Shown here: one piece after another, positions 46,150 to 50,552 of the stretch
Layout of the letters: the number at the start of each line of letters is the position of its first letter
Numbering within the stretch: the stretch's first letter is position 1
DNA from: an uncultured bacterium
GTDB taxonomy: Bacteria; Bacteroidota; Bacteroidia; Chitinophagales; CAIODY01
Reading direction: 5' to 3'
Length of the DNA: 64,000 bases
Assembly: GCA_903857255.1 (NCBI GenBank)
Contig: CAIODY010000081.1
Span: 1 to 64,000, forward strand
Position numbers and translations under genes: made by a program
The notes under the pieces: model-generated
Databases searched by the model: none
What the model saw: the letters and a program-made list of their open reading frames with translations, nothing else
Told to the model about the DNA's origin: nothing

Positions 46150-49100
46150 TTACACCACCACATTAATCATTCTGCCTTTTACAAAAATGAATTTCTTCAT
46201 AGGTTTGCCTTCCATAAATTTCTGAATAGTAGCATCCGCTAATACAGTAGTTTCTATATCTTTTGCATCAGCATCTAACGCAAACTCCATATTGATACGC
46301 GTTTTGCCGTTGATAGCAATGGGATAACTGAATGAATTTTCAACCAAATATTTTTCATCGTGGGTTGGAAATGGCGCATCAATCACACTGTTTTTGTTGC
46401 CGATTTCCTTCCACAAATATTCAGTGATGAATGGCGCAAATGGATTTAATAAAACGAGCAAAGGCTCTAAAATGCTGCGTTTGTTGCATTTCATCGCTTG
46501 CAATTCGTTTACACAAATCATAAACTGACTAACGCAAGTATTGTAAGCCAACTTCTGAATATCGGCATCAATTTTTTTGATGGTTTGGTGCAAGATTTTT
46601 AATTCTTCGTTCGTTGGTTCTGCATCGCTCAAAGTCAATTTATCTTCGGTAAAAAATAAATTCCAAAACTTGCGTAAGAAGCGACTTACGCCTTCAATGC
46701 CTTTGGTATCCCAAGGTTTGCTTAATTCTATTGGGCCTAAAAACATTTCATACATACGGAAAGTATCAGCACCGTATTGAGCAATCATGTCATCTGGATT
46801 GACAACATTGTATTTCGATTTGCTCATTTTTTCGACAACTGGAAGTAATTCAACTTTGTCTTCTGAAATTTCAAAGGCTTCAATTCCTAACTTTGAACAA
46901 ATTTCTTTCGTTAGAAAATTGACATTACCAAATCTTGGATGCGTATTCTTTAACTCCTGTAATTTTTCTTTTGTCAAATAATACTTACCTCCATTAAATT
47001 CAGCAAAATCAATTGGAATATGAATTAGAATATCATCTACTGGCAATTTTTCCAAGAATCCTTTATCGATAAATACAGAAATTATATTTTCAACTTTATT
47101 TGAATCAGGATTATAAATACCTCCATCAAAACTAATACTAGGTATGTTACGAACCATCATACTAATCCCTTGTATCATCCCCTGATTCACCATTTTCTTA
47201 AATGGCTCATCGAAATTGATGAAACCTAAGTCGTGCAATACTTTCGTCCACATACGGCTGTACAACAAATGCCCAACTGCATGTTCGCTACCTCCATTAT
47301 AAAAATCAACAGCACCCCAGTATTTCATCGCTTCTTCATTCACAAATGCTTTGTCTTCTTGCGGACTCATATAACGCAAGAAATACCAACTGCTGCCAGC
47401 ATAACCAGGCATGGTGTTGGTTTCTAAGTTTTTGTCCGTCCATTCTTTTATGTTTGCTAAAGGTCCTTGTCCTTCGGGGCCAGGCGAATACGAAGCCACA
47501 TGTGGCAAGGCTAAAGGTAATTCATTTTCGGGTAAAGTTTTCGCAATTCCGTTTTCATAATAAATTGGGAAAGGCTCACCCCAATAGCGTTGGCGGCTGA
47601 ATCCTGCATCTCTCATGCGGAAATTTATTTTTCGTTGCCCAATATTTTTTGCTTTAATTTCTTGCAATATTTTTTGTGTGGCAGTTTTGTAATCCATGCC
47701 ATTTAAAAAATCGCTGTTGCACAATGTTGCTGTTTTTTCTTCGTAACATTTTTCAGCAATATCGATGCCTTCAAAAATATTAGGTTTGTCAATTTCAAAA
47801 TGAGTAGCAAAAGCATAATCACGGCTATCGCCAGCCGGCACCGCCATGATAGCGCCTGTACCATAACCATTCAACACATATTCGCTAACATAGATGGGAA
47901 GCGGTTTTTGAGTGAATGGATGCAAAGCAAAAGCACCCGTAAAACAACCTGTAATTTTCTTTTCAGCCATGCGTTCCAAATCGCTGCGGCTTTTTACATA
48001 AGCCACATATTTTTCGATTTCAGCTTTTTGTTCGGCAGTTGTAATTTGATTGACCAAATCATTTTCGGGCGCAACAACCATGAACGAACAACCGAAAATT
48101 GTATCAGGACGGGTTGTGAAAACTTCTACTGACCTCACCCCATTGGAAAGATTGAAACTTGTGCCAGCCTCATTTGACCTCACCCCCTGCCCCCTCTCCA
48201 AAGGAGAGGGGGTGGTTGCCTCCGATTGTAATGCTGTTTTTATTTTTTGAATTACGACTTGTAAATTATTTTTTACTTCCTCATTTGTAAATCGAATAAC
48301 CTTGAAACCAGCCAAATTCAAGGCTTCTGTTCTGATTGCATCTTCCTCTTTTTGTTTGAGGTGAACTTCTCCATCAATTTCTATCACTAATTTTTTCTCA
48401 ATGCAAACAAAGTCAACAATGAATTTTTCAATGGCATGTTGCCTGCGAATTTTAAAACCCAACTGATTATTTCTAACAGCTTCCCAAATTATTTCTTCGG
48501 TTTCAGTTTGATTTTTTCTCAACTCACGAGCAATTGGTTTTAATGCTTCAAATGTTTTAGCATCTGTAGTTTCATAACCATAAGGTTCAGTATTTGAAGG
48601 CGATTGTATTGCCCCCTCTCCTTTGGAGAGGGTTGGGGTGAGGTCAAAACGAATTGATGCTCCTTCACTTCTTCCAATCCAATTGCGTTGCATTTCTTTC
48701 ATAGGTTCGCTCCAGTCAAGCGTTTCAAGTCCTTGTAATAATCTATCGGCATATTCAGTAATTCTTAAAAACCACTGACGCATTTTCTTTTTCACCACAG
48801 GATGTCCGCCACGTTCGCTAACACCATTCACCACTTCATCATTCGCCAACACAGTTCCTAAAGCTTCACACCAATTCACTTCCGCATCAGCCAGATAAGC
48901 CAGACGGAATTGCATTAAAATATCAGCTTGTTGCTTTTCTGAAAATGATTTCCATTCAGCTGCTGAAAAACTATTTTCGATTTTTGATTTTTGATTTTTG
49001 ATTGAACAGCCAATAGTTTCAAACTTTGAAATCAAAGTAGAAATATGTTCTGCTTTGTTGGTTTCTGGATTGTACCATGAATTAAAAATTTGTAAGAAAA

Positions 49101-49512
49101 TCCACTGTGTCCATTTGTAATATTTTGGGTCGGAAGTTTTGAATTCACGGCTCCAATCGTAACTCAAACCAATTTTATCTAACTGCTCACGATAACGGGC
49201 AATATTTTTTTCGGTTGTAACCGCAGGATGCTGACCAGTTTCAATAGCATATTGTTCGGCAGGTAATCCAAAGGCATCATAACCCATTGGGTGCAATACA
49301 TTGAAGCCTTTATGGCGCTTGTATCGAGCATAAATATCAGAAGCAATGTAGCCCAGTGGATGCCCTACGTGCAAGCCTGCGCCGCTTGGATAAGGAAACA
49401 TTTCGAGCACATAATATTTGGGTTTATCGCTTTTGTTTTCAACACGATAAATATTTTTTACAGCCCAAAGCTTTTTTACTTCTTGTTCAATATTTGCAAA
49501 ATTCAATTTCAT
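46150..49512 (-). CDS. leuS: Leucyl-tRNA synthetase with in-frame DUF559 insertion
   Basis: PYPSGAGLHVGHPLGYIASDIYARYKRHKGFNVLHPMGYDAFGLPAEQ; VEKMSKSKYNVV; 1120 aa. Confidence 0.95.
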   Translation of the reverse strand: MKLNFANIEQEVKKLWAVKNIYRVENKSDKPKYYVLEMFPYPSGAGLHVGHPLGYIASDIYARYKRHKGFNVLHPMGYDAFGLPAEQYAIETGQHPAVTTEKNIARYREQLDKIGLSYDWSREFKTSDPKYYKWTQWIFLQIFNSWYNPETNKAEHISTLISKFETIGCSIKNQKSKIENSFSAAEWKSFSEKQQADILMQFRLAYLADAEVNWCEALGTVLANDEVVNGVSERGGHPVVKKKMRQWFLRITEYADRLLQGLETLDWSEPMKEMQRNWIGRSEGASIRFDLTPTLSKGEGAIQSPSNTEPYGYETTDAKTFEALKPIARELRKNQTETEEIIWEAVRNNQLGFKIRRQHAIEKFIVDFVCIEKKLVIEIDGEVHLKQKEEDAIRTEALNLAGFKVIRFTNEEVKNNLQVVIQKIKTALQSEATTPSPLERGQGVRSNEAGTSFNLSNGVRSVEVFTTRPDTIFGCSFMVVAPENDLVNQITTAEQKAEIEKYVAYVKSRSDLERMAEKKITGCFTGAFALHPFTQKPLPIYVSEYVLNGYGTGAIMAVPAGDSRDYAFATHFEIDKPNIFEGIDIAEKCYEEKTATLCNSDFLNGMDYKTATQKILQEIKAKNIGQRKINFRMRDAGFSRQRYWGEPFPIYYENGIAKTLPENELPLALPHVASYSPGPEGQGPLANIKEWTDKNLETNTMPGYAGSSWYFLRYMSPQEDKAFVNEEAMKYWGAVDFYNGGSEHAVGHLLYSRMWTKVLHDLGFINFDEPFKKMVNQGMIQGISMMVRNIPSISFDGGIYNPDSNKVENIISVFIDKGFLEKLPVDDILIHIPIDFAEFNGGKYYLTKEKLQELKNTHPRFGNVNFLTKEICSKLGIEAFEISEDKVELLPVVEKMSKSKYNVVNPDDMIAQYGADTFRMYEMFLGPIELSKPWDTKGIEGVSRFLRKFWNLFFTEDKLTLSDAEPTNEELKILHQTIKKIDADIQKLAYNTCVSQFMICVNELQAMKCNKRSILEPLLVLLNPFAPFITEYLWKEIGNKNSVIDAPFPTHDEKYLVENSFSYPIAINGKTRINMEFALDADAKDIETTVLADATIQKFMEGKPMKKFIFVKGRMINVVV
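48173..48648 (-). mobile_element. In-frame DUF559-encoding palindrome-flanked insertion in leuS
   Basis: Inverted ends tttgacctcacccc (48173) / ggggtgaggtcaaa (48635), each with nested palindrome CCCTCTCC-AAA-GGAGAGGG; encodes ARELRKNQTETEEIIWEAVRNNQLGFKIRRQHAIEKFIVDFVCIEKKLVIEIDGEVH. Confidence 0.85.
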
Positions 49513-49571
49513 TAGTGTTCAATAAATTTTTGCGAAGATAAAAAAATGAAAGCACAAGACGAGCGCAGATT

Positions 49572-50552
49572 TTACTCTATCAACTCATAATTTTTCAGCA
49601 CTCTCCAACCATAAATTCCGTTGGCAAATGTGAATTTAATTTTGCTGTAAGGTCTTGTCCTATCAGGGTCGGGGAAGAAACGGATGAAAGTAAATTCATC
49701 GTAAGCATTGTTTGCTAATTGCATCATCGAGCCACGTTGCATGGTAAATTCATATTGTTCATCTACAGCATTAAAACTGATGTAAAAATTAGTTACAAAA
49801 AGTGCGTTCGCTAATAATGGTGCAATGCCAACCAACAAAAGCAACAACGAAATTTTCACTTTTTGCTTAAAATAAAATTGCCATAATGCGCCGCAAATAC
49901 TAATGGATAGTACATAAAATAGCAAAATGAATTTCATGTCAATCATCGTAACTAATGCGTAATTCCAAAATAAAAACAGATTAATTGCTGATAGCCAAAA
50001 CAATTTAAAGTGTTCAAATTTGTTCAAAAAAGAAAATGAAATCTTGAATCGTTCCCAATGCAATTTTTTTCGTAGCGACCAACCAATGAATAAATACGGC
50101 GAAAAAAACAGCAACAAAATTGCCGCAGGAATCAATGCCGGCAAGCCATACCATTTGAAAAAGAAAATCGGGATGGCGATGGGTAAAAAAATTGAAACAA
50201 AAAATCCGAAATGGTCGAGCAAAATATTCATCGAATTCAAATAGCGATAATCATCTGAATTGATGTATTCTTCATAACGCATTTGTGCTTGCCTCTCGGC
50301 TTCTGCATTGGCTTTCCGCTTTTCTTCTTGCATCCAATTTTCATAAGAAGAATTATTAAATGCTGACGGATTTTTTTTGTGCTTGATTAAAATTTGATAG
50401 GCTTCATTCAGCAAAATAAAATGCTGATGTGCATCAGGGTGCGAATTAATGTCAGGATGGAATTGTTTGGCTTTGATGCGATAAGCTTTGGTGATTTGCT
50501 CAATGGTAGCAGATTCTGAAAGCTCTAATATTTTGTAGTATTGATGCAGCAA
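49572..50552 (-). CDS. J-domain (DnaJ-like) membrane protein
   Basis: YYKILELSESATIEQITKAYRIKAKQFHPDINSHPDA; TM segments. Confidence 0.88.
   Translation of the reverse strand: MLHQYYKILELSESATIEQITKAYRIKAKQFHPDINSHPDAHQHFILLNEAYQILIKHKKNPSAFNNSSYENWMQEEKRKANAEAERQAQMRYEEYINSDDYRYLNSMNILLDHFGFFVSIFLPIAIPIFFFKWYGLPALIPAAILLLFFSPYLFIGWSLRKKLHWERFKISFSFLNKFEHFKLFWLSAINLFLFWNYALVTMIDMKFILLFYVLSISICGALWQFYFKQKVKISLLLLLVGIAPLLANALFVTNFYISFNAVDEQYEFTMQRGSMMQLANNAYDEFTFIRFFPDPDRTRPYSKIKFTFANGIYGWRVLKNYELIE

Follow-up and report, generated by a model that had tools for sequence, protein, structure and literature searches.

What is an endonuclease-like domain doing in the middle of an aminoacyl-tRNA synthetase, and how did it get there? 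The question is posed by a leuS gene in the genome of an uncultured Chitinophagales bacterium, of which 64,000 nucleotides (hereafter the window) were analyzed. Comparison with related genomes, protein domain and fold searches, and phylogenetic trees give good support to the view that leuS has been entered by a mobile, palindrome-framed nuclease cassette which lies in frame with the synthetase.

A nuclease cassette within leucyl-tRNA synthetase

The leuS gene occupies positions 46150-49512 on the reverse strand and forms a single open frame of 1120 aa, insert included. A Pfam scan of the encoded leucyl-tRNA synthetase (LeuRS, LeuS) recovers tRNA-synt_1, the LeuRS editing domain and Anticodon_1, together with a DUF559 domain situated between the catalytic and editing domains (aa 325-428, E 1.3e-34). 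The only other match is a single sub-threshold REase family. The HIGH motif (as HVGH, aa 48-51) and KMSKS are both intact, and among the matches listed for this 97%-complete genome there is no second strong LeuS. LeuRS activity is presumed to be retained with the insert in place.

The extent of the insert was defined against the empty LeuS loops of relatives. It lies at the tip of the beta-hairpin leading into the editing domain. From the W of WIG[RK]S to the P of TTRP, the loop measures 192 aa in the window and 28 aa in most empty relatives, and excision of aa 292-455 (164 aa, ~492 bp; 48148-48639, reverse strand) gives back exactly the 28-aa loop. The original prediction had called for such an alignment and had placed the element at 48129-48650. 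Its location was right, while its borders were too wide because they took in native codons and a third copy of the tail repeat.

Both ends of the cassette are palindromes consisting of a hairpin and a tail. In gene orientation, the 5′ palindrome (48612-48648) is composed of the tail TTTGACCTCACCCC followed by the hairpin CCCTCTCCAAAGGAGAGGG, with the tail pointing outward, and the 3′ palindrome (48173-48212) is its inverted copy, hairpin then tail. The 21-nt hairpin repeats, CCCTCTCCAAAGGAGAGGGGG (48192-48212) and CCCCCTCTCCTTTGGAGAGGG (48612-48632), are 100% complementary, and the 14-nt tails TTTGACCTCACCCC and GGGGTGAGGTCAAA are exact inverted copies located at 48173-48186 and 48635-48648. 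These exact repeats and the Pfam assignment confirm that an in-frame DUF559 insert with inverted palindromic ends resides within the 1120-aa leuS, as first proposed. Repeat comparison also locates the predicted third tail copy, TGACCTCACCCC(A) or GGGGTGAGGTC, at 48130-48142, where it is read GVRS and is probably a remnant. Within 48130-48190, the insert's right-hand remnant EAGTSFNLSN, which lies between the native strand and the 3′ palindrome, reads like a second copy of the native hairpin strand. The third tail copy comes next to it, and the two together are possibly a duplication or a remnant of the insertion.

The nuclease domain itself (48229-48540, reverse strand) is identified by Pfam, by fold search and by its conserved residues E339, D367, E378, D380 and H384. 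It is joined to LeuRS by two linkers that contain the palindromes, both of which are open in the frame of the nuclease. The N-terminal linker (48541-48639, reverse strand) comprises the 5′ palindrome and the sequence that follows it, with disorder predicted for aa 294-321; the C-terminal linker (48148-48228, reverse strand) comprises the 3′ palindrome and neighboring sequence, with disorder predicted for aa 435-459. In AlphaFold models DUF559 folds compactly (core pLDDT above 90) and is tethered by the two disordered linkers, the full-length LeuS model being of modest quality (pLDDT 68). A sequence search for solved relatives of DUF559 returns 3hrl alone. Foldseek also ranks 3hrl first, followed by the homing endonuclease I-Bth0305I (3r3p; TM 0.76 by target length), with Vsr lower.

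The acidic active-site residues E, D and E-x-D are kept in all in-host DUF559 copies scored. For the computable pairs among the first twelve, dN/dS is 0.03-0.10, similar to the range of the hosts, these ratios being approximate because some synonymous distances are saturated. In-host DUF559 domains have an intact active site under purifying selection, which could also signal a benefit to the host.

Whether the insert is translated or removed was left undecided by the original prediction. The reading frame is compatible with translation, which is the better half of that alternative, and we infer that the insert is translated; removal finds no support. An intein or an intron-like element, excised from protein or RNA, would account for a nuclease lying in frame in a conserved gene. 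Nevertheless, the Pfam scan of LeuS shows no intein splicing (Hint) domain, no Rfam family (group I/II intron etc.) reaches its gathering threshold within 47000-50000, and the segments beside DUF559 are short and predicted to be disordered. The original prediction had likewise recognized no self-splicing motifs, and an intein or intron is rejected as hardly credible.

Recurrence at one site and horizontal turnover

The search for DUF559 covered 199 related genomes as well as named genomes. The loops of LeuS are empty in congeners G001 and G002 and in confamilial G003-G005, contrary to the idea that all relatives carry the domain. In G001, leuS occurs in two differing versions, one on contig C20 (L179) and one on C62 (L041); both have empty loops, and the assembly is probably a mixture of strains. 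The loci retrieved contain 135 DUF559 domains, of which ~80 are found within long host frames. LeuS is the commonest host, with 33 loci at the identical hairpin tip in Bacteroidota and three Nomurabacteria, and 3 further loci at a second leuS site. A chimeric assembly, which would have explained the insert as an artifact, is rejected given dozens of in-frame copies at the same point in other genomes.

Similar cassettes have also entered about twenty other genes, among them genes for unrelated proteins. In-frame DUF559 domains occur in IleS (11 loci), RecG (5), HsdR (4), MetH (3) and a DEXH helicase (3); two of the MetH loci, L212 and L220, were assigned by similarity to L204, on which alone the domain scan was run. 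Hosts represented by a single locus include UvrA, MnmE, PriA, TsaB, HsdM, HemE, RecQ, MiaA, MmeI, an Eco57I methylase and an amino-acid kinase. In some hosts, e.g., HemE, MiaA and RecQ, the domain lies near a terminus. The IleS of locus L154 is a 1367-aa frame with two separate DUF559 domains.

The favored site in leuS is not reserved for DUF559. In G029, a different nuclease-like domain, PBECR3 (L046:2320-2952, E 1.7e-18), occupies the same hairpin tip, and no inverted repeats are present at the ends of that insert. Since an unrelated domain has settled there, tolerance may suffice to explain why this site is favored, and recurrence in leuS could reflect tolerance instead of targeting.

The histories of cassette and host are discordant. 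On a LeuS tree built with insert columns left out, insert presence at the tip requires 12 changes, at least 9 of them forced by starred branches. The window LeuS is placed within its own family among five LeuS that have empty sites (100*), while its DUF559 clusters with the inserts of ten Cytophagales LeuS (95*). The host topology is rejected by the DUF559 alignment (AU p=7e-5), as is the DUF559 topology by the host data; deep branches of the DUF559 tree are weak because it is built on 117 columns only. The loci L088 and L197 provide a direct example of turnover: the hosts are 96% identical and flanking DNA is 88-95% identical on both sides, yet the inserts share 46% identity. Patchy occupation of the site, conflicting trees and empty congeners uphold the proposal of a mobile palindromic cassette that landed in frame in an essential gene.

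The same observations bear on a single ancient fusion of DUF559 to leuS, handed down by vertical descent with many later losses. Such a history would fit the single position of the inserts at the tip and the clustering of many leuS DUF559 domains. It would also demand repeated precise losses, given the exact 28-aa loop at most empty sites, and it conflicts with the disagreement between DUF559 and LeuS trees and with the very different inserts found in near-identical LeuS proteins. With trees in conflict and host and insert identities so unequal, ancient fusion is rejected as very improbable.

Palindromes with and without a nuclease

For each DUF559 copy the two flanks were compared and their best inverted repeat was scored, with a cut-off of at least 14. 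By this measure 90 of 134 DUF559 copies are framed by inverted repeats (58/80 in-host and 32/54 standalone), compared with 0.34% of 2621 control placements at the same loci; at a third of copies, a Chloroflexota clade included, none were detected. The palindromes vary by lineage and share a common layout of hairpin plus tail, the tail mostly pointing outward. No exact direct flank repeat of at least 5 bp, as a target duplication would leave, was found at the 90 cassettes scored.

Palindromes of the window type are also found without a nuclease. Searches of the genome, as the original prediction had suggested, recovered more copies dispersed through it, with 13 exact hairpins and some diverged copies. 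Five copies fall inside open frames of 420-836 aa (L009, L010, L011, L015 and L018), including those of a helicase, a GH92 glycosidase and GcpE, and are always read PSPLERxGVR. In the helicase, comparison with the 90%-identical protein of G001 reveals that the palindrome takes the place of ~13 other codons with length nearly unchanged, so that this copy appears to have substituted for native sequence instead of simply being added to it. Several genomes (G079, G147, G108 and G181) contain many palindromes and no DUF559. Among all 199 genomes, DUF559 is present in 23 of the 27 with five or more palindromes versus 64 of the remaining 172 (Fisher p=4e-6, uncorrected for kinship).

A multi-copy form of the DUF559 unit is found in two Legionella genomes (L281-L303). 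In full form it measures ~650 bp, with common inverted ends of ~125 bp. Several units adjoin GC-rich palindromes, many copies are shortened, and some of the DUF559 copies are decayed. Direct repeats of 8 bp flank five of the elements, with 7 or 8 of 8 bases identical. In L. moravica, the end pairs listed are under 1 kb apart, so close that no space for a further transposase was apparent. More than one mechanism may be needed for the two groups, since Legionella elements show target duplications and none of at least 5 bp was found at the scored cassettes.

Movement of the cassette and its known counterparts

The explanation favored here, a nuclease cassette that is left unspliced, spreads in a homing-like manner and is tolerated by LeuRS, is given a probability of about two in three as a whole. 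The cassette would be a Vsr/EDxHD-fold (DUF559) endonuclease frame set between two inverted hairpin-plus-tail palindromes. The ribosome would read through it with no splicing, and the nuclease would hang off the beta-hairpin tip by two disordered, palindrome-encoded linkers, an arrangement that LeuRS would tolerate. Movement among leuS alleles and into other genes would begin with a cut by the nuclease, made either in the palindromes themselves or at a site that is empty or holds a different insert; repair would then copy in the cassette at the expense of a few native codons. The driver of mobility would thus be DUF559 cutting and subsequent repair. Survivors would be in-frame landings at tolerant loops, with the leuS tip as the commonest harbor, and the bare palindromes of the window genome would represent non-autonomous relatives of the cassette.

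Alternatively, it could be the palindromes that are mobile, with another enzyme such as a REP-associated tyrosine transposase moving them and DUF559 as a passenger. This explanation accommodates the genomes that have palindromes without DUF559, and the tail GGGGTGAG matches the GGGGWSAS motif of inverted repeats beside some tyrosine transposases (PMC3733652). In an evolution experiment with L. pneumophila, DUF559 segments were recombination hot spots, and a transposase was described in the same segment (PMC12308824), which keeps the passenger explanation alive. On the other hand, the Y1 transposases of the same genomes are flanked mostly by other hairpins, and in G001, G005 and the window genome no CTCACCCC/GGGGTGAG or CTCTCC hairpin lies close to a Y1 gene. 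The enrichment of DUF559 in palindrome-rich genomes and the closely spaced L. moravica ends likewise speak against a different transposase. Mobilization by a tyrosine transposase, which might nonetheless act in trans, is therefore disfavored, and a passenger role for DUF559 is considered unlikely. Less probable again is that LeuRS carries DUF559 to the benefit of the host, as a domain for defense or DNA repair that was fused to an abundant protein and is exchanged by ordinary recombination. The in-host copies have the low dN/dS and intact active site expected of such a domain, restriction-modification genes are among the hosts, and VsrA of Caulobacter, a DUF559 protein, is responsible for the SOS response in cells without cytosine methyltransferase (PMC12907096). 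A mobile element nevertheless fits better with the unrelated hosts, the patchy distribution among congeners, the palindromic ends and the multi-copy units of Legionella.

The homing-like nuclease cassette shares features with several known systems. Rickettsia palindromic elements (RPEs) and other protein-coding palindromes are short, are scattered through a genome and interrupt unrelated conserved proteins in frame, where they are translated and not removed (PMC10969869, PMC2229807), and the bare window palindrome is similarly dispersed and in frame in unrelated proteins. However, RPEs are ~100-150 bp long with no nuclease described, whereas the window cassette carries its own. CGTC-tagged REPs, RPE-4 and RPE-6 included, have no known dedicated transposase (PMC3733652); the CGTC tag is reported for R. 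conorii RPE sequences, while the window tail, by inspection, is GGGGTGAGGTC. Similarity is also evident to EDxHD/Vsr-like homing endonucleases such as I-Bth0305I, in the fold and conserved active site of DUF559 as well as in its patchy presence at one homologous site with conflicting trees, indicative of horizontal invasion. A DUF559 gene had been assigned earlier to the EDxHD/Vsr-like family (PMC9403480). Homing endonucleases are known as free-standing proteins or within self-splicing introns and inteins (PMC3943268), whereas the window nuclease is part of the host protein, framed by palindromes and without a splicing element. Inteins likewise reside in frame in essential conserved genes, at one recurrent site and with a homing-type nuclease, but the window insert has no splicing domain and sits at a tolerant loop instead of an active site.

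Transposable elements offer two further comparisons. Like a REPtron (RAYT plus inverted REPs), the cassette has a small nuclease gene between inverted hairpin-plus-tail repeats that are also dispersed. Unlike a REPtron, it has a Vsr-like fold and not that of an HUH tyrosine transposase, DUF559 being alone between the window repeats; it has no GTAG tag, and DUF559 cassettes are commonly in frame in essential genes. Terminal inverted repeats are shared with IS and MITE-type elements. As for target duplications, 8-bp ones were seen at the five Legionella elements and none of at least 5 bp at the 90 cassettes scored.

The repeated entry of DUF559 cassettes into one spot of leuS and into other genes points to a little-recognized kind of mobile DNA able to reside unspliced inside proteins. 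Targeted searches of open-access journals, and the DUF559 papers examined, gave no description of palindromic ends or of in-frame insertion in synthetases for DUF559. More tentatively, and at somewhat less than even odds, the cassettes may form a mobile-element class of their own, with a small Vsr-fold nuclease as the sole mobility enzyme, palindromic ends that double as linkers, dispersed palindromes as non-autonomous offspring, and the ability to persist unspliced inside essential proteins. For more than two decades it has been an open question by what means RPEs and similar protein-coding palindromes move, and a palindrome-framed nuclease with empty congener sites offers a concrete candidate mover for at least one palindrome class. 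If the proposal is true, homing-type elements can occupy essential genes without self-splicing, a tolerant loop being sufficient, and many oversized LeuS, IleS, RecG and similar database proteins are occupied alleles. Cassette sites also offer places, tried out many times in nature, at which domains can be added to essential enzymes.

Standalone DUF559 genes display variations on the same architecture. The window genome encodes a second DUF559 gene (L006:1430-1920, on contig C102 of G000), which is standalone and has at either end, in inverted orientation, another palindrome, TCCCCCTTGCAAAGGGGGTTAGGGGGATTT, whose tails point inward. In Prevotellaceae (L135-L164), a standalone DUF559 clade lies between inverted palindromes at seemingly one conserved spot, where the right-hand repeat is followed by what, judged by eye, is an argC-like start.
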